Shown here in pieces: positions 33,408-41,872 of a stretch of DNA of 62,003 bases. Location of the stretch: the NCBI GenBank assembly GCA_013288145.1, contig JABDCJ010000001.1:1-62003 (forward strand). Reading direction: 5' to 3'. The stretch is from Nitrososphaerota archaeon (GTDB lineage Archaea; Thermoproteota; Nitrososphaeria; Nitrososphaerales; CADDZS01). A program made the position numbers and the translations under genes. Each line of letters begins with the position of its first letter. Positions within the stretch are counted from its first letter, which is position 1. The notes beneath the pieces were generated by a model, which saw only the letters and a program-made list of their open reading frames with translations, was not told the origin of the DNA and searched no databases.

Positions 33408-33595
33408 TAGATGCACTTCCAAAGTTATGCTAGAACTGGTCTTACAATATCTTTCGATAGGCTTGGATCGTGAACTTCCCGTTTTCGCGCAAAAATACGA
33501 GATACTGAAATCTGAAGTCTCGTGGGAAATGAATGGTTCGAAAAATAATGTAACTCTTATAACGGTCAGGTAATTCCCAGCTTTGGTAATCGTGT

Positions 33596-33610
33596 TACGC
33601 TTTATAATCG
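33596..33610 (+). promoter_or_regulatory. TATA element for the cbsA-like operon
   Basis: The A/T box ctttataatc (centre about 33603) lies 28 bases before the ATG at 33631, the distance expected for a near-leaderless archaeal mRNA. This favours 33631 over the longer upstream frame. Confidence 0.5.
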
Positions 33611-33630
33611 GGGCTTGGAACCACGATTTC

Positions 33631-34803
33631 ATGAAAAATACTTGGTTCTCGGAGACACCCAAATCACGTTCGAATAGCGGGATATTGTGCGCTCTTGCAA
33701 CCATAATTCTACTTTTAGCTTTGCCCCCGGCATTGCTTCAACTCGGAGTCTCGGCCGACGCGCAGACCAATTTTCCAAGTATCATTTCTTACCGCGTGAG
33801 CGGAGCTCCGAACTATTCATTGCCAGCGAGCGAATCGTTCTGGAGTTCAATTAACTGGACAAGTGTGCCCCTCGCGGCGTCAGTCTCGCCTGGAGGAGGA
33901 CACACTCCGAGTATGCTGGTAAAGTCTGCAAACACTGGTTTTGATGTCTATATGTTGTTCCAATGGAATGACACGGCTGGTCCATCTTTTCTCTCGGATA
34001 CGGAAGTTTACCGAGCAGCAAATGGGTCGCTTGTGCCGCTTTCACCCGGTCTAACAGGAAATGTCACACAATTATATTACAATTCCTCGTATTATTACCC
34101 AGACAGAGCCGCGATGCTGTGGTTTGTCGCAAACCAATCTGAACAGCAAACTTCTCCGAGGATGATGCTTGGTACCAATGGCGCAATTACGGGAGGCGCT
34201 GCTGAGATTTGGCACTGGCAATCAAACCCTACGGACAACAGCCCAAATGATACTGGGTATCCGGGAGGCTATACTGACCCTTCGGGGAAGGCAATTTATC
34301 CCCCTGACAATCTGACATTTGCTGAAGACGATTATACCAATACCTCGGGCTTCTATGTGGTCGGAGGTAGTTTCAACACATCAAGTCCGAATCTCGATCC
34401 ATATGCCGATCCATTCATCGTGCATGCTGCCAGTGCTTATTCATTCGTTAATAAGACTTGGACAGTGGAAATGGTCCGGAGTTTTACAACGATTGACGCA
34501 GCATCACGATATCGAGTACAACTAGCCACTGGGTCTTCCTACTATATTGCTCTCGCAGTCTGGCAGGGACGTATGGGCGAATCTTCAGATTTCAAGTCTG
34601 TTTCTCTATGGTACAATCTTACGGTCTCCGAAAAGCCCGCTTCCTCTCATGCCTCCTTGAGTACGACCTCCACTACCTCAGTTCTAGGTCAGGTCTCGAC
34701 TCCTCTTGCGATCGCAGTCGCGACCGGTGTTTTGATTGCCGGATTGGTAATCGGTACCGTCCTGAGATCATCTGGGCCAAGTGCGAACAAGAAAATGAGT
34801 TGA
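33631..34803 (+). CDS. CbsA-like exported haem protein (ethylbenzene dehydrogenase gamma-type)
   Basis: About 390 residues from ATG 33631. N-terminal signal helix (ILCALATIILLLALPPALLQL), an extracellular domain with many N-x-S/T sites, and a C-terminal anchor (LAIAVATGVLIAGLVIGTV). The GGAAEIWHWQSNP element is typical of the haem-binding EB_dh family, to which the Sulfolobus cytochrome b558/566 subunit CbsA belongs. It overlaps the Rieske gene by one base, and cytochrome b follows, as in the Sulfolobales cbsA-cbsB-soxL-soxN locus, but without a recognised CbsB. It likely accepts electrons on the outer face. Confidence 0.75.
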   Translation: MKNTWFSETPKSRSNSGILCALATIILLLALPPALLQLGVSADAQTNFPSIISYRVSGAPNYSLPASESFWSSINWTSVPLAASVSPGGGHTPSMLVKSANTGFDVYMLFQWNDTAGPSFLSDTEVYRAANGSLVPLSPGLTGNVTQLYYNSSYYYPDRAAMLWFVANQSEQQTSPRMMLGTNGAITGGAAEIWHWQSNPTDNSPNDTGYPGGYTDPSGKAIYPPDNLTFAEDDYTNTSGFYVVGGSFNTSSPNLDPYADPFIVHAASAYSFVNKTWTVEMVRSFTTIDAASRYRVQLATGSSYYIALAVWQGRMGESSDFKSVSLWYNLTVSEKPASSHASLSTTSTTSVLGQVSTPLAIAVATGVLIAGLVIGTVLRSSGPSANKKMS

Positions 34804-35465
34804 TGATGAAATTGGATGAGAAAAATCTAGTCGAAGGCGCTCCCGAAAACCAAACCCCCAATGACGAATCTCGAAGGAACTTTCTGAAAATATCTGTTGT
34901 GCTTTCTGCGATCCTTGCGGCGGGCGGAATCGCGGCAGTTACCAAATCTGTAACCAATAGAGCGCAGACCTCGGAAGGAGCCTCTTCGACACCGAACACG
35001 TTTCCAAAAGTCAAAATCGCCACTCTTAGCTCCCTTGCAGTGGACCAGGTAGTGAGTTTTAATTATCCTCTGGATAACGAGCCGAATATCCTGATAAAAT
35101 TAGGGCAAAAGGCGTCGGGAGGCGTTGGTCCTGATCAGGATATAGTAGCCTTCAGTCAGCTCTGCCAGCACCTCGGCTGCGACTACGCATATCTGGCTCC
35201 GGGGACATCACCAAAGTGCGATTCGAGCTACAAGGCTCAGGGACCTGAAGGATACTGCTGCTGCCATGGTAGCATTTACGATTTCACTAATGCAGGGAAA
35301 GTTCTCGGCGGACCGGCTTCGCGCCCGGTTCCTCAAGTGATTTTGGAAGTTGACGCAAAAGACGACATTTACGCGAAAGGGATGAGTCCACCTGCGATTT
35401 TCGGTCACAGCACGGGCTCACAAGATGTCACAAACGATTTGCAGGGCGGAAATGTTGTGAGTTGA
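34803..35465 (+). CDS. Rieske iron-sulfur protein 1 (SoxL-like)
   Basis: About 220 residues. The start ATG at 34803 overlaps the CbsA stop (A of TGA). A Tat motif S-R-R-N-F-L-K and a membrane helix follow (VVLSAILAAGGIAAVT). The Rieske box is LCQHLGCDY and GYCCCHGSIYDF, providing two Cys and two His for the 2Fe-2S cluster plus disulfide cysteines. It should move electrons from quinol, at cytochrome b, to CbsA or another acceptor. Five bases separate it from cytochrome b. Confidence 0.93.
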   Translation: MMKLDEKNLVEGAPENQTPNDESRRNFLKISVVLSAILAAGGIAAVTKSVTNRAQTSEGASSTPNTFPKVKIATLSSLAVDQVVSFNYPLDNEPNILIKLGQKASGGVGPDQDIVAFSQLCQHLGCDYAYLAPGTSPKCDSSYKAQGPEGYCCCHGSIYDFTNAGKVLGGPASRPVPQVILEVDAKDDIYAKGMSPPAIFGHSTGSQDVTNDLQGGNVVS

Positions 35466-35470
35466 GATAG

Positions 35471-36988
35471 ATGGAAAAACCAGTTGAGAGCGAAAGACCC
35501 GAGAAGCGCCAAAATGCCATTGCGAGGCTAGCATCTTGGTTTGATTCAAGACTCGGCTTATCCTACCCGTTTTTACGGTCAGTCCCTGCTTATTCGATAA
35601 ATCCCTTCTATTGGCTTGGGGCACTTACCGTGGTTGCATTTGTAATCCAAGGAATAACTGGAGTGATCATGATGCTATACTACGTTCCAGATCCTACAAC
35701 TGCTTTTTCTTCGACTCTGTACATTTTTCAAAAGGTCTCCTACGGTCGATTTCTCGAAACTATTCACCTTTACACCGCATACGCTATGATAATGCTGGCG
35801 TTCATGCACATGATGCGGGGCTACTTCGTTTCGGTGTACAAGAAACCGCGGGAGTTGATGTGGATTGTCGGAATGGGAATGGGTTTCGTAACGCTGGGGT
35901 TCGGGTTCACTGGCTACCTGCTTCCATGGACCGTAGTTTCAAAATCTGCAACAGATGTGGGAATTGGCATGATTGATGCGCTTCCTCCGCCGATTTCGAA
36001 TCTGATCAGTTTTCTTGTTATTGGAGCAGGCGGGGATGCAACTGAAATTCTACGATTTTACGACCTCCACGTCGTGGTCTTGCCCGCCGTTTTGCTTGTC
36101 CTTCTGGCTTTGAAAATGTACATGCTTGAAGCGAATGGAATCTCAGAGCCGGTTACGGGAAAAGAGATAACTCCAGAAAAGAAGAAACTGATTCCAATAT
36201 TTCCAGACGTGTCACTCTACCTGCTAGAGCTAGCTGCTATCTTCGGATCGGGAATGCTTTTGATTGCCGCAGCTTTCCCACTTAACTTACCACCGCAGTT
36301 CACACCACAACTTGCCGCACAATCAACTCCCCAGCCCGATTGGTATTTCCTTTGGATCTATCAGATCCTCAAGATTTCGGTATTTGAAGGTGCAGGTTTG
36401 CCTATAGCCTTGACGTTGGTTACTCTCATTTTCGTCATCCTCGTCCTTCTACCTTTCATAGACCGAGGTCCCGATAAGAGGATAGCAAAGAGACCTCTTT
36501 TTGTTACCCTTGGAATTATCTTCGTCGCAGAGGTCGCCGCTCTTGCTTATTGGGGTCTGATCACTCCAGGCCAGATCATACCAGTAGAGCAGGCAGTACT
36601 AGTCCTCGGCGGGCTCGCATTGGTGATTGCTGTAGTTTCGCTCGGCTTGTTCAGATTGATCTCGTCAAGGGCAAACAAACGTTTGCCAACAGTGCAAGGA
36701 CCAAAAATCATGAGAGCGGCAGAAATATGGAATGGGGTAGCGTTCACGATTTGCGCTGCATTCGGCGCTCTGACGATTGGCGGTACTATCAACTCAGCTG
36801 TCGCGCTTTTACTGAATGGTTTCGATCAGGCTAATGTCATCAACTTTCTCTCTTCCTTAGCGTTCCTCTCCGTATGTGTGGTTGGAACCACTTACCTGAT
36901 TTATCGTTCGGACCTGAGAACCGGAATGATCAAGAGAAGAGTGCGTGCTTTCGAAGTTGGATGGAAAGTTAGTATGGAGGATGACTAG
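35471..36988 (+). CDS. Cytochrome b subunit (SoxN/b6-like)
   Basis: 505 residues, about 11 membrane helices. It oxidises quinol with its Rieske partner. Helix B carries H99 and H113 with b6-like spacing; KKPRELMWIVG and GFTGYLLPW follow. Helix D has H200, but the second ligand position, 15 residues on, is K215 where b6-type proteins have His. The Qo motif is PDWYFLWIYQILK. The C-terminal third (about 390-505) is extra membrane sequence. The last bases overlap the start of the small membrane gene at 36981. Confidence 0.93.
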   Translation: MEKPVESERPEKRQNAIARLASWFDSRLGLSYPFLRSVPAYSINPFYWLGALTVVAFVIQGITGVIMMLYYVPDPTTAFSSTLYIFQKVSYGRFLETIHLYTAYAMIMLAFMHMMRGYFVSVYKKPRELMWIVGMGMGFVTLGFGFTGYLLPWTVVSKSATDVGIGMIDALPPPISNLISFLVIGAGGDATEILRFYDLHVVVLPAVLLVLLALKMYMLEANGISEPVTGKEITPEKKKLIPIFPDVSLYLLELAAIFGSGMLLIAAAFPLNLPPQFTPQLAAQSTPQPDWYFLWIYQILKISVFEGAGLPIALTLVTLIFVILVLLPFIDRGPDKRIAKRPLFVTLGIIFVAEVAALAYWGLITPGQIIPVEQAVLVLGGLALVIAVVSLGLFRLISSRANKRLPTVQGPKIMRAAEIWNGVAFTICAAFGALTIGGTINSAVALLLNGFDQANVINFLSSLAFLSVCVVGTTYLIYRSDLRTGMIKRRVRAFEVGWKVSMEDD

Positions 36989-37256
36989 AGAGACCGTGGT
37001 TCCGGCACGACGAGTCGTAATTCTGCTACTTTTGCTACAAGCGGTCACAACTTTGTTTCTTTGGACATTGGATGCCCTAAATGAAATCAGTGAGGGTGTT
37101 TTCGCTCTATTTCTCGCAGCAGACCTGGTCGCGTTTGCCATGATATCATATCTCTATCGTCACGAAAGGGAAGACGTGAACCCGAGCCGGACTTGGATTG
37201 CTGTCGGTGGGGCGCTCATAGTGGTATTGCTAATCACGAGCCTTATGCTAACTTAG
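36981..37256 (+). CDS. Small three-helix membrane protein after cytochrome b
   Basis: About 91 residues; ATG 36981 overlaps the cytochrome b stop by 8 bases. Helices: VVILLLLLQAVTTLFLW, then VFALFLAADLVAFAMISYL, then WIAVGGALIVVLLITSL. In the Sulfolobales the equivalent place holds OdsN; a relation is possible but not shown. It overlaps the convergent Rieske-2 gene by four bases. Confidence 0.6.
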   Translation: MTRETVVPARRVVILLLLLQAVTTLFLWTLDALNEISEGVFALFLAADLVAFAMISYLYRHEREDVNPSRTWIAVGGALIVVLLITSLMLT

Positions 37257-37768
37257 TTGATTTGACTGTTTCCAACGTAGAGGTTGGTGCCCTGTACTAA
37301 TACTGAGTACTCGGGCAGAGGTATAGGAGGAGGACCACCTTCGACATTTCCATTGCTTGCACTGAAAGTTCCATCGTGGCAGGGGCAGTAAATAACCGAA
37401 TTTTGATACTGCACGGTGCAGGGTCTGTGCGTGCATGTAGCACTAAACGCCTTCCATTGACCTCCGATGCTCACAAGTAATGAACTGCCAAAGGTCGGAT
37501 GTGAAAAATACGCATATGTTTTTCCTGATAGCTGGCTGAGCGAGGCAATCAGCGAATAACCACTAGGAACCGCTACAGAGCTAGATTGTGAGGTTCCATT
37601 GGCGACGGTGCTGCCCTGAATACTCGTGGATTGCTGAATTGTAGCTTGAACAAGTTCGGAATTTTGACTTTTCTGAACAAGGCTGCCTAACTCAAGTAAG
37701 CCGGCCGCGGCGGTACCTACCAAAGCAGCAGTGACAACAAAACTACGAATGAACTCTCTTCGGTTCAT
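37253..37768 (-). CDS. Rieske iron-sulfur protein 2
   Basis: 171 residues. The Tat signal N-R-R-E-F-I-R and a helix (VVTAALVGTAAAGLLEL) are followed by a Ser/Gln/Thr linker. The Rieske domain has CTHRPC and CPCHDGTFSASNG, then GGPPPIPLPEYSV. It is short, near the minimum. Its ATG overlaps the stop of the bis-histidine membrane cytochrome at 37768 by one base, so the two are translated as a pair. Confidence 0.93.
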   Translation of the reverse strand: MNRREFIRSFVVTAALVGTAAAGLLELGSLVQKSQNSELVQATIQQSTSIQGSTVANGTSQSSSVAVPSGYSLIASLSQLSGKTYAYFSHPTFGSSLLVSIGGQWKAFSATCTHRPCTVQYQNSVIYCPCHDGTFSASNGNVEGGPPPIPLPEYSVLVQGTNLYVGNSQIN

Positions 37769-38271
37769 TACTTTGCAACAAGCCTCCGAGGACGCTCCGG
37801 GAGTGTGATTTCTTTCAGGATCTTCTTTGCATGACCCCAGGCTCTTTGAGAGACGAGAATTGAGGTAATTCCCAAAATTATCAAACCAAGATAAAGGGGA
37901 ATGTTAGACCCGGAACTTACGGCGTGTATAACCATCATCGAAATCGCTGCAAATGAAAGCGAGCCGTGATAGAATAAGCTGTCCCGGTACCTTTCCAGGA
38001 AAGCGGTTCCGGTGAGCCACACAACCACCGCCTCGGCGGTTGCAGCATAACCGAGAATGACGGCTAGAGTAATAGGATACGAAACAAAATAAGCCACATG
38101 CAAAACCAAGAACAGGCCGCCCAGTGCAGAAAAAGTGATGTGAATTTTTCTAAGCAAGTTTAGATTTCTGGTATGCTTGAGTACCTGCTTTCGCAACAAA
38201 ATGAATATTGCTGTGAAACCAATGAAAAACAGCGCGAGGAGACCAAAAATATCTCCTAATAGAAAATCCAT
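37768..38271 (-). CDS. Compact membrane cytochrome b with four haem-ligand histidines
   Basis: 167 residues, five membrane helices, ATG start. Two helices each carry a pair of histidines 14 apart: H44 and H58 (IHITFSALGGLFLVLH), then H102 and H116 (YHGSLSFAAISMMVIH). This is the four-helix, two-haem ligand pattern of b-type cytochromes and of ferric-reductase-like/YedZ proteins. The neighbour is Rieske-2. No known short cytochrome of this exact kind was recognised. The end is basic (PERPRRLVAK). Confidence 0.72.
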   Translation of the reverse strand: MDFLLGDIFGLLALFFIGFTAIFILLRKQVLKHTRNLNLLRKIHITFSALGGLFLVLHVAYFVSYPITLAVILGYAATAEAVVVWLTGTAFLERYRDSLFYHGSLSFAAISMMVIHAVSSGSNIPLYLGLIILGITSILVSQRAWGHAKKILKEITLPERPRRLVAK

Positions 38272-38307
38272 GGCAGAACCTAGCTATTGTTTAACAAAAC
38301 GCCCTAA

Positions 38308-38586
38308 CTATCTTTCAAACAAATATTTCGACGAGTAAGAATCCACACCGCTGAAACCATGAACTTGAAAGTAAGATAAGAAATTTGTAACACCCGCACG
38401 AATTGGTGCAACCATGGCGTTCGATCCATCTGTATTCGCAGAGGGTGTTGTATTTAATTGAGGTCCGGAAATCGGGGTCGCTCCTGAGGATCTCACGCTA
38501 AAGGGATTCACTAGAAGTATCACGACCGCAAAAGCAAGAATTGTACAGAGTAGTACGATTGAGAGCGGAGTAAGCCTGTTTTTCAT
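38308..38586 (-). CDS. Membrane-anchored small protein upstream of the Rieske-2 operon
   Basis: About 92 residues from ATG 38586 (the frame stays open to 38619). One membrane helix (LSIVLLCTILAFAVVILLV) and a Ser/Thr/Asn-rich extracellular part ending in FLSYFQVHGFSGVDSYS. Two to three dozen bases separate it from the compact cytochrome, so it is probably the first gene of that operon. A structural or docking subunit is likely; no enzyme motif. Confidence 0.5.
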   Translation of the reverse strand: MKNRLTPLSIVLLCTILAFAVVILLVNPFSVRSSGATPISGPQLNTTPSANTDGSNAMVAPIRAGVTNFLSYFQVHGFSGVDSYSSKYLFER

Positions 38587-38619
38587 ACCCTCTTCCAGAG
38601 ACTCCCGCGACGAGGTCAC

Positions 38620-38916: not shown

Positions 38917-39435
38917 GTGCTTCTTTATATTAGAAATCACCCCGGCACACATCTCAGGCAGATCAAGAGGGATCTCGATATTTCCATGGGAGTTACGCAA
39001 TATCATTTGAGTTCCCTTGAAAGATCCCAGCAGATAATAGCTCGCAGAGGAGGGCTTTACAAGAGGTTCTATCTTGCGCTTGCTTTTGGCGAGCACCAAC
39101 AAGAGATCCTAGATGTACTTTCTCAGGAAACCGAACGTGATTTGATGCTTTTCCTAATTCAAAAGCCGTGGGCGACTCAAAAAGATCTATCGGAGTACGC
39201 CAGAATATCTCCGGGGACAATTAATTGGCATATGAAAAGATTGATTGCAGCAAAGTTGGTTTCAACGAAGCGCGCGGGCCAGTTTGTTATGTATTCGATT
39301 ACCGTGGATTCAGATGAAATCATTACTTTGCTGCGTAGTTATCATCCGAGCACCTGGGAAAAGTGGGCTGATAGGATTGCAAACGTTGTCAATGAGCTGT
39401 CAAATATCGAACCAGAAGGGGAGGAGAAATCATGA
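38917..39435 (+). CDS. Tandem winged-helix transcription regulator
   Basis: 172 residues from GTG. Two winged-helix domains: residues 4-55 (IRNHPGTHLRQIKRDLD, SMGVTQYHLSSLERSQQII) and about 66-125 (LMLFLIQKPWATQKDLSEYA, ISPGTINWHMKRLIAAKLV). A stop is a short way upstream in frame, and GTG is the only ordinary start. It overlaps the next gene by four bases (ATGA), so it is coupled to a small membrane protein. It probably regulates the neighbouring respiratory genes. Confidence 0.78.
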   Translation: MLLYIRNHPGTHLRQIKRDLDISMGVTQYHLSSLERSQQIIARRGGLYKRFYLALAFGEHQQEILDVLSQETERDLMLFLIQKPWATQKDLSEYARISPGTINWHMKRLIAAKLVSTKRAGQFVMYSITVDSDEIITLLRSYHPSTWEKWADRIANVVNELSNIEPEGEEKS

Positions 39436-39791
39436 TCGACTCGGGATCAATTTCAGGAATTGCTTTGAATCTGTTCTCAAACTTGGACATTGAAGGGGGC
39501 GCTGAACTTGCCCTAGATCTTGTGTCCGGAGTCTTTGCCTTCGTTTTGTTTGCAATAACGCTTTTCGCCTGGAGATTTCGGGGAAAACAACCCAGTCTCC
39601 TAATAGTTGCATTAGGTTTTCTTGCGTTCTTCTCGAAACAGCTCATTCAGATTCTACCATTAAATGATTGGCACAGCGACCTGTTCAAATCAGGAATGGA
39701 TTTTCTAACATTAGGCTTGTTTTTCATTGCTCTGGTTGTTAGACCGCAGCGCCGTGACAGAATTCCTGCGAGAGAGCCATCGACCGCCTAG
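39432..39791 (+). CDS. Small three-helix membrane protein coupled to winged-helix regulator
   Basis: 119 residues. Helices: LVSGVFAFVLFAITLFAW, then SLLIVALGFLAFFSKQLIQIL, then MDFLTLGLFFIALVVRP. The basic loop after the first (RFRGKQPS) is shared in plan with proteins at 7549 and 45257. The ATGA overlap with the regulator suggests a one-to-one pairing. Function unknown; a membrane sensor that holds the regulator is a reasonable idea. Confidence 0.65.
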   Translation: MIDSGSISGIALNLFSNLDIEGGAELALDLVSGVFAFVLFAITLFAWRFRGKQPSLLIVALGFLAFFSKQLIQILPLNDWHSDLFKSGMDFLTLGLFFIALVVRPQRRDRIPAREPSTA

Positions 39792-39829: not shown

Positions 39830-40831
39830 CTAAACACACGGTCCCGATCCAACTACTTTTTCGGGAAATATGTTGCCGTTGGAATCGATGCGCAACTGAA
39901 TCGAAGGTAACTTTGTCTGCGCCGGCCCTCTCAGCACATTTCCGTTCAAATCGAACACGGAACCGTGACAGGGACAAAATAGGTCTCCATTCCCCGACTC
40001 GTACTGGCACACACAGCAAACGTGAGTACAAAGAAGGCTTATCGCGCTCACAGAACCGTCGCTCTTCTTCATTAGCATGTTTGTATACCCTTGCGATGGA
40101 TAATCAAAGTATTCAGGCACTCCGATCTGCAGCGAGTTAACGTTTGCAACAGCCCCTGATGGACCGGTGGATGTCGCACCTGAGGTTTGCGTATTACTTG
40201 GAGAATTACCTGAATCTTGTGAAGGACTTAGAGCGGTCCAGACTCCAAGCGCTGCTGCGACAACGAGAAGCGCGCCAATTGTACCGCCTATTTGTAGAAA
40301 GTCTCTCCTAGAATTCTTCATACCCATCTCAAAGTAACTATTCGCCTTTCTCTGCGAGATCAGACCCGAGACCGCTCTCGCCGAGTTTGCAAAGACAACG
40401 ATAACGAGCTGTGTTGCAAGGAGCGCATCAAAAGGCCACAATCCGAAAAGATAAATTGCAAAGGCAGAGGCAGAAAGATGATACTGTGGGGCAGTTGCGA
40501 TATCGGCAATTTGGAGGATAAACGTCAAAATAGCCCAACCGATGGTAGGCAAGATCACTCGCCTCTCAGAAAGTATGTTTGCGATCCCTAAGATTACATC
40601 AATAACGCATATTGCAACTAGTCCGTACGCGTGAGAGACGGCAAGTAACCAGAGAGATTTGTCAGTAGCAAGGAGATAGGCCCCAAGCGCTGCCGAGCCG
40701 AATAAGGCAATTCCGATCACAAGCTGTAATCGTGATAATCGTCGATTTACTTCCGCCTTCGATACTTTTGTTTTAGCCGTTGCTCCTTTCTGCGAAGAGG
40801 AATCCGAATCTCTTTTGCTCAAGCTTTTCAC
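39830..40831 (-). CDS. Rieske iron-sulfur protein 3 with N-terminal multi-helix domain
   Basis: 333 residues from GTG. Residues 1-30 are charged. About 35-160 form four membrane helices (for example LLAVSHAYGLVAICVIDVIL and ALLATQLVIVVFA). A Tat motif follows at S174-R-R-D-F-L-Q with a further helix. The Rieske domain has LLCTHVCCVCQY and LFCPCHGSVFDLNG. An internal ATG (M169 or M171) would give a normal Tat-only Rieske protein, but the upstream helices are in one open frame with no break. It stands apart from a cytochrome b gene. Confidence 0.88.
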   Translation of the reverse strand: MKSLSKRDSDSSSQKGATAKTKVSKAEVNRRLSRLQLVIGIALFGSAALGAYLLATDKSLWLLAVSHAYGLVAICVIDVILGIANILSERRVILPTIGWAILTFILQIADIATAPQYHLSASAFAIYLFGLWPFDALLATQLVIVVFANSARAVSGLISQRKANSYFEMGMKNSRRDFLQIGGTIGALLVVAAALGVWTALSPSQDSGNSPSNTQTSGATSTGPSGAVANVNSLQIGVPEYFDYPSQGYTNMLMKKSDGSVSAISLLCTHVCCVCQYESGNGDLFCPCHGSVFDLNGNVLRGPAQTKLPSIQLRIDSNGNIFPEKVVGSGPCV

Positions 40832-41122: not shown

Positions 41123-41872
41123 ATGGCCAGTCTTCTCACGATAGTTCTGTTTTCGACGGTGATGGGGCTGTCGATATTTCTTGCAATGCCCGTCGTTCTT
41201 CGGAGAGAAACCGGTGTCCTGAAGACTAAGTTTCTGAATGCGATCGCGATTGGTATCTTGATCTTTCTGATTGGGGACATCTTCTCGAATGTATCGCCCG
41301 ACCTCTATAACGGCAGCTATTTTGGTTACGGATCCTCGCTGCCGGCAGACGTGACATTTGCTATTGCATTCGGGTCGGGATTTCTAATCTTGTTTTTCTT
41401 GGGAAACCGAACTAGTTCAGGGCTAACCGCATCTCATTTGGCTCTGATCATAGCGTTTGGAATGGGGTTCCAAAACTTGACTGAAGGCCTCGTTTTCGGT
41501 TCGCTGGGGGTTACAGCTGGTTTGTCGGGTGCCGCTCTAGTGGTTTTGGTTGGTTTCATACTCCAAAATGTCACAGAGGGTTTTCCGATTGCATCTCCGT
41601 TCTTAGGGCGTACTGAAGGGAAATTCAGACAACTCGTGATTCTATTCTTGATTGGTGGATTGCCCACAATATTCGGAGGAGCTATAGGTTATTTCTACAA
41701 TGGATCAATTCTCGATGTAGCTTTCGATGGTGCAGCAATCGGAGCAATACTTTACGCCCTACTCCCAATGCTCCGAATGCTCTTCCGGGAGACTGACAGA
41801 ATATACTTGAGGGTAGGATATCTTGGCATTTTTCTTGGGTTCCTGATTGGTTTTCTAGTCAACTTGATCTAG
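41123..41872 (+). CDS. ZIP-family-like metal transporter
   Basis: 249 residues, about eight membrane helices. Two ZIP signatures: QNLTEG (residues 117-122) and QNVTEGFPIAS (148-158). These match the H-N-x-P-E-G of ZupT/ZIP transporters, but both histidines are glutamine and both prolines are threonine. It would carry divalent metals across the membrane. Loss of the His suggests altered metal choice. Its upstream region may hold a small leader peptide. Confidence 0.8.
   Translation: MASLLTIVLFSTVMGLSIFLAMPVVLRRETGVLKTKFLNAIAIGILIFLIGDIFSNVSPDLYNGSYFGYGSSLPADVTFAIAFGSGFLILFFLGNRTSSGLTASHLALIIAFGMGFQNLTEGLVFGSLGVTAGLSGAALVVLVGFILQNVTEGFPIASPFLGRTEGKFRQLVILFLIGGLPTIFGGAIGYFYNGSILDVAFDGAAIGAILYALLPMLRMLFRETDRIYLRVGYLGIFLGFLIGFLVNLI

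Follow-up and report, generated by a model that had tools for sequence, protein, structure and literature searches.

Rieske proteins of respiratory membranes are regarded as partners in bifurcating quinol oxidation. Here, we analysed a 62,003-nucleotide stretch of contig JABDCJ010000001.1 from a Nitrososphaerota archaeon (the window, taken at its whole length), in which a minus-strand operon joins the gene of a Rieske [2Fe-2S] protein to that of a 167-residue membrane protein, a predicted two-haem cytochrome. Of comparable build are the cytochrome b/Rieske complexes of the bc1/b6f type, exemplified in the window itself by the operon that faces the pair (33583-37256): they likewise combine a two-haem four-helix core with a twin-arginine Rieske protein, and they carry four His, two per helix on two helices, with 13-14 residues between them. 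However, the archaeal protein is one third as long, lacks the quinol-oxidation (Qo) motif and the C-terminal helices and has ligand helices of opposite predicted direction, and its Rieske partner is without the high-potential Leu, Ser and Tyr.

In the MsrQ/YedZ-MsrP system a small membrane haem protein without a flavin domain also stands beside an exported redox partner, with a feed from the quinone pool that we presume for the archaeal pair as well; that partner is a molybdenum enzyme and not a Rieske protein, and the membrane protein described here has five helices and no PF01794 match. In the ferric reductase superfamily, as judged from passages on SpNOX (PMC11564096), inner and outer His pairs sit on two helices running from inside to outside, which is the direction predicted here. 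In Zhang et al. 2013, Rieske is one of the domains that occur in fusion with ferric reductase domains (FRDs; their model M4), fusions that the wording of the relevant passages suggests are bacterial (PMC3591440). Both there and here a ferric-reductase-type domain would be joined with a Rieske domain, but M4 describes a single fused protein with a recognisable FRD, whereas we find two coupled archaeal genes and no FRD profile. The same passages describe most short forms as being without the inner haem ligands and few as having all four. Proteins of the Sco3746 type, in which haem b helices and a molybdenum domain share one chain exported by the Sec and twin-arginine translocation (Tat) systems (PMC5449189, passages on dual Sec/Tat proteins), resemble the pair in that a haem membrane part serves a Tat-exported domain; in the archaeal case the haem part is on a separate gene.

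Because fusions are already listed in PMC3591440, the combination of Rieske and ferric reductase domains is not new, and in seeing the novelty in the Rieske partner the initial annotation went too far for what those passages contain. The apparent novelty lies in the minimal split form: all four His are retained, and the coupled pair of genes is conserved within an archaeal lineage. In the open-access literature searched, no paper came up that brings Rieske and cytochrome b proteins together with group 1.1c or non-ammonia Thaumarchaeota, and the word Rieske is absent from the main text, as available, of a genome paper on the Candidatus Gagatemarchaeum family (PMC10640624). We give an even chance to the reading of the pair as a compact transmembrane electron relay, working in series like MsrQ, with an exported low-potential Rieske protein as its outer carrier.

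A membrane protein family with four constrained histidines

The three genes lie where the initial annotation had placed them, with the same lengths, the same one-base coupling and the small anchored protein in the lead:

37768..38271, minus strand: membrane protein, 167 amino acids (aa), five helices, predicted two-haem (bis-His/bis-His) cytochrome
38140-38142 (H44), 38098-38100 (H58), 37966-37968 (H102) and 37924-37926 (H116), minus strand: ligand codons of the 167-aa protein
37253..37768, minus strand: Rieske [2Fe-2S] protein, 171 aa, N-terminal twin-arginine motif, box I CTHRPC, box II CPCHDGTFS
38308..38586, minus strand: small protein, 92 aa from ATG, one predicted membrane anchor and a Ser/Thr/Pro-rich tail

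The base shared by the genes of the pair lies in TAATG at 37768. Start positions of many reading frames are those of the longest possible frame; the small protein would be 103 aa long if read from an alternative GTG further upstream, at 38619.

A protein search returned 122 relatives at E <= 0.01, of which 120 are listed, and the four with a named organism are all Thaumarchaeota. In the alignment of these 120 listed relatives, window protein included, H44 and H58 are kept in 120/120, H102 in 118/119 and H116 in 119/120, while the two remaining His of the protein are poorly kept (H33 in 10/119, H147 in 69/118). The constraint thus falls on exactly H44, H58, H102 and H116, and since H33 and H147 vary, a chance pattern is excluded; the two-haem pattern H44/H58 and H102/H116, first read from one sequence, is borne out with at least 118 of 119-120 relatives at each position. 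R41, P66, L92, Y75, G74 and G88 are also present in 120/120, the two Gly being spaced 14 apart in the third helix. An AlphaFold model (mean predicted local distance difference test score 77.5, predicted template modelling score 0.64) has five long helices, of which a crude hydropathy scan calls only three, and the His pairs lie at matching places along two of the five, H44/H58 within residues 37-61 and H102/H116 within residues 96-119.

To which known family does the protein belong? It is a member of an unnamed archaeal family. The comparison with cytochrome b and ferric reductase profiles that had been suggested from the start came back empty for the window protein at E <= 1, for PF00033 (cytochrome b), which is also absent from the family list of 24 members of the alignment, and for PF01794 (Ferric_reduct). 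Weak matches among the 24 members spread over PF01794 (seven, best E 0.016), PF01292 (Ni_hydr_CYTB / prokaryotic cytochrome b561; six, best E 4.4e-4, the window protein again with none at E <= 1) and DUF4405 (PF14358; ten, best E 0.0075, the window protein reaching 13.9 bits against a cut-off of 26.7). In the Protein Data Bank, a sequence search with the family profile gave only a SecY chain at E 0.86, and fold likeness is spread alike over cytochrome b561, cytochrome b6, SpNOX and designed two-haem bundles. Because direction, profile and fold point to different branches, we assign the protein to no family and describe it only as a predicted two-haem four-helix membrane cytochrome. The likeness to YedZ raised earlier is poor: according to passages of PMC3591440, YedZ and STEAP proteins have Arg at the site of the first haem His, whereas the archaeal family keeps H44 throughout. 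Five proteins of similar length with weak Ferric_reduct matches (L095-L099) were set aside as small succinate dehydrogenase membrane subunits, judged by eye from neighbours of that type.

Predicted topology and haem placement

Loop charges were counted in 134 of 141 sequences, with seven long stand-alone relatives set apart and the stand-alone L047 and L048 included. The mean number of Lys and Arg per loop is 6.13 after the first transmembrane helix (TM1), 0.01 after TM2, 2.01 after TM3, 0.01 after TM4 and 3.50 at the C-terminus, and 124/134 sequences have none before TM1. By the positive-inside rule, the N-terminus is predicted to be outside and helices 2 and 4, which carry the His pairs, would cross from the inner to the outer side, which is the direction in ferric reductases and NOX proteins and the opposite of that in cytochrome b. 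The same count over 49 cytochrome b proteins from the group served as a control: 5.84 Lys and Arg fall within the 45 residues preceding helix A, and the loops that follow hold 1.08 (A-B, 23 residues), 1.94 (B-C, 8 residues) and 2.33 (C-D, 46 residues). These counts put helix B outside to inside, in agreement with known cytochrome b.

Taken with the His sites in the AlphaFold helices, the charge direction suggests that the inner haem should lie at H44/H102 and the outer haem at H58/H116, an arrangement that, going by the passages available on it, is that of SpNOX (PMC11564096). Haem binding itself, and the depth of each haem in the membrane, we infer from these predictions.

The Rieske partner

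The identification of the partner as a Rieske protein holds (PF00355, E 3.7e-10, 40 bits against a cut-off of 20.3, with CTHRPC/CPCH ligand boxes). A twin-arginine motif RR(E/K/D)(F/L) stands close to the start in 18/18 partners, in L044 only in the frame upstream of the called start. Seventeen partners were parsed by a two-box pattern, the eighteenth, L002, being without both disulphide Cys; in all 17 the Ser position is Gly or Ala and the Tyr position is Phe, and the box I Leu (CTHL) occurs in none. The facing Rieske protein (34803-35465), unlike the partner, has CQHLGC and CHGSIYD. In yeast, loss of the Ser lowers the potential by ~130 mV and loss of the Tyr by ~65 mV, as reported in the relevant passages of PMC12954380. 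The partner is therefore predicted to be a low-potential Rieske protein, a rule to which an exception is known (see below).

Distribution and gene pairing

The protein looks like a member of a narrow archaeal family. A scan with one genome each for 84,980 species, which requires a match to one of two short patterns and can miss members, gave eight loci: six with archaeal titles, Candidatus Gagatemarchaeum stordalenia among them, one titled Deltaproteobacteria (L002) and one weak match in Ruminococcus (L008; 35% over 98 query residues, E 8e-5), which was set aside as too weak. The Deltaproteobacteria record (palsa_1115) holds the whole archaeal-type cluster, as from a misfiled bin or a transfer. 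The genomes searched contained the family in 16/400 of the class, 22/201 of the order and 1/398 of the phylum draw, the last being the centre genome itself; absences are soft, as genome completeness was not given. No match to the membrane protein was found in a plasmid collection. Full cytochrome b is present in 21 of the 22 genomes with the family, in line with the earlier view of the pair as separate from the facing cytochrome b operon, and a haem-copper oxidase in 19/22.

Is the Rieske neighbour a constant feature? The initial annotation had made its absence from relatives a ground for rejection. Among 28 full-length copies (L017 and L029, cut by contig ends, and L008 dropped; G417 and G410 within the 28 are near-copies of others), 19 have a Rieske gene directly downstream on the same strand, and the neighbour is to that extent conserved in relatives. 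In one of these, L002, this is the larger Rieske protein, and the small one stands at the end of the cluster. Seven of the nine copies without a Rieske gene in the fetched flank have an extra N-terminal stretch, maybe one more helix; these stand-alone paralogues, with called lengths of 190-254 aa, are L039, L043, L045, L050, L055, L056 and L057. A tree of 27 copies (18 paired, window included, and nine stand-alone) splits the two sets on one branch with weak support (48/37). Distances between membrane proteins and between their Rieske partners correlate over 18 pairs (r 0.545, 0/5000 permutations as high), which can be explained by shared ancestry alone.

The wider cluster

Further genes lie around the operon:

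39830..40831, minus strand: second Rieske protein, 333 aa, four predicted helices ahead of the twin-arginine helix
38917..39435, plus strand: winged-helix regulator with a helix-turn-helix of HVO_0163 type
39432..39791, plus strand: three-helix membrane protein; overlaps the end of the regulator gene
41123..41872, plus strand: ZIP-like membrane protein, a loose neighbour, below the Pfam cut-off in the window

Counts for the cluster refer to 17 relative loci, with G417 and G410 left out. A counterpart of the small anchored protein is found close to the pair in 13/17, built from one hydrophobic helix and a Ser/Pro/Gly-rich tail; most relatives, though not the window, also have Asp or His clusters. 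HHHH occurs in the outer tails of the small proteins of L001 (2646-2939), L002 (10565-10915) and L038 (3982-4278), and others have Asp-rich ends; these tails are possibly metal-binding. The regulator stands beside the pair in five loci (L002, L006, L038, L041, L049) and is unseen in the fetched flanks of the other 12, some of which are short. The second Rieske gene is in the same cluster in four (L001, L002, L038, L049), and in L038 a single strand carries, in order, regulator, membrane partner, small protein, haem protein, Rieske and second Rieske. A ZIP-like gene lies near the pair in three (L002, L051, L054) as well as in the window, where the protein has QN..EG against HN..EG in the relatives. 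Scans of the window with Rfam and for tRNA genes gave no matches.

A proposed compact transmembrane relay and its alternatives

In the relay that we propose, the five-helix protein would hold two stacked b haems between helices 2 and 4, the H44-H102 haem at the cytoplasmic side and the H58-H116 haem at the outer side. The Rieske protein, folded in the cytoplasm and exported by Tat, would stay beside the outer haem, tethered to the outer face by its N-terminal anchor, and the small anchored protein could serve as an additional subunit on the outside. The quinol pool or a cytosolic donor would be the most likely source of electrons, which would pass from the inner to the outer haem, then to the Rieske cluster and on to an extracytoplasmic acceptor. 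This transfer would be in series, in the manner of MsrQ to MsrP, and would not involve the bifurcated Qo chemistry known from cytochrome bc complexes. What was computed for this reading comprises the family, the ligand conservation, the pairing, the loop-charge asymmetry, the twin-arginine motif and the missing Ser, Tyr and Leu; the physical complex, the direction of flow and the donor and acceptor we infer.

Several results speak against the relay. No Pfam or NCBIfam family is reached by the window protein. In a profile-profile comparison by hhalign, run on trimmed alignments, no relation to archaeal FRD proteins emerged (22 columns, P 0.099); the top result was a weak local match to PF01292 (67 columns, P 2.1e-4), with cytochrome b behind it (23 columns, P 0.042). 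Foldseek matches are uniformly weak (best E 0.13), and in VIA-align, whose list does not exclude families missing from it, CcmF, a designed bundle, TRPML2 and ligand-binding bundles score at least as high as the cytochromes; as unrelated bundles tie with cytochromes, fold cannot decide the branch. There are five helices against six in the FRD. In the seven long stand-alone relatives the charge asymmetry is weaker (1.14 after TM3, 0.86 after TM4), and for the window cytochrome b an automatic count over the whole protein, in which helices were miscalled, gave the reverse of the expected direction (13 against 25), so that it is the first loops that carry the charge argument. Nine of the 28 copies have no Rieske gene in the fetched flank, one of them with only 406 bases downstream, and no acceptor gene recurs: no family other than those of the pair, the small protein and overlapping frames is present in more than 6/18 loci. 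Finally, an anammox Rieske protein that lacks the Tyr but keeps the Ser stands at +335 mV (PMC12954380, passages on this protein), and the potential is for this reason unreadable from residues alone.

It has also to be asked whether the pair is a cut-down cytochrome bc-type quinol oxidase, in which the Rieske and the two-haem protein would bifurcate quinol electrons. The likeness of the core would suit this, but the ligand helices are predicted to run in the opposite direction, the 167 residues contain no PEWY/PDWY part (the facing cytochrome b, 505 aa and three times as long, has PDWY), the Leu of CTHLGC is missing from all 17 parsed partners, and these genomes nearly all have a separate full cytochrome b; for these reasons we regard such an oxidase as improbable. 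Among ten scanned neighbour proteins, the cytochrome b C-terminal domain was found only in the facing cytochrome b. Of the minimal quinol-oxidising or electron-transfer complex suggested by the initial annotation, the electron-transfer part thus survives, and the bc-like quinol oxidation does not fit the helix direction, the missing PEWY and C-terminal part and the Rieske residues.

A surface ferric or cupric reductase, with metal held by the His/Asp-rich tail of the small protein and imported by the ZIP-like neighbour, would agree with the FRD-like helix direction, with the Asp- or His-rich tails of most relatives, including HHHH in three, and with ZIP matches that exceed the cut-off in L002, L051 and L054; in other organisms, ferric reductases are found paired with ZIP carriers. 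We nevertheless give it little credence, since a ZIP-like gene occurs in just 4/18 loci, window included, with L051 and L054 close in the tree, the window match is below the cut-off and has Gln for the ZIP His, the window tail is not His/Asp-rich, and a Rieske protein is unnecessary for reducing metal. The flow might also be reversed, the Rieske protein taking electrons from outside or from the second Rieske protein and the haems passing them inward to quinone or signalling to the regulator. The regulator and its membrane partner in the clusters of the window, L002, L006, L038, L041 and L049, and the two Rieske proteins per cluster in the window, L001, L002, L038 and L049, favour such reverse flow or redox sensing, but the fetched flanks of 12/17 relative loci showed no regulator and no donor enzyme recurs among the loci, which leaves this a small probability.

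The relay can be extended, on a tentative and rather doubtful footing, to a third kind of Rieske/cytochrome b machine in one archaeal lineage, where a reversed two-haem bundle and a low-potential Rieske protein would act in series, parallel to full cytochrome b. In such a machine, the Rieske protein would be the terminal outer carrier of a transmembrane wire and not one arm of a bifurcating quinol oxidase. The pair, with its far smaller haem protein of reversed predicted insertion, would provide a natural, very small model of transmembrane electron transfer onto a Rieske cluster, and it would mean an extra branch of the respiratory chain in uncultured soil archaea whose relatives include Candidatus Gagatemarchaeum.

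The second Rieske protein and the facing cytochrome b operon

The 333-aa second Rieske protein resembles dual Sec/Tat Rieske proteins and belongs to a family of this lineage. It has the same layout, four helices and then Tat, as the five-helix Kitasatospora Rieske protein in the passages of PMC5449189 on dual targeting; homology of the N-terminal helices is not implied. In its N-terminal part D57, H67, D78, Q107, D110 and Q141 are invariant across 32 aligned members. The family has mostly CTHVCC and CPCHGSxF, and the fold of the Rieske domain comes closest to that of arsenite oxidase small subunits. Locus L125, in a further member of the class (G025), encodes a 490-aa fusion of a PF01292 cytochrome with a Rieske domain, a fused counterpart of the same idea.

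The facing operon (33583-37256, plus strand), which converges with the minus-strand operon so that their 3' ends meet, encodes an EB_dh protein, a Rieske protein, the PDWY cytochrome b and a small three-helix protein. It is reminiscent of the CbsA/SoxL/SoxN cluster of Sulfolobus. Against NCBIfam, the SoxC and SoxL2 models remain far below cut-off, and the Rieske protein is above the cut-off for the arsenite oxidase small subunit. In the facing cytochrome b (35471-36988, plus strand) the second haem ligand of helix D is Lys (K215) and not His, for which a limited search of the open-access literature found no earlier report. Across 50 aligned rows of the group, window included, this site is Lys in 25, His in 24 and Gly in one (L086, a poorly aligned partial sequence).
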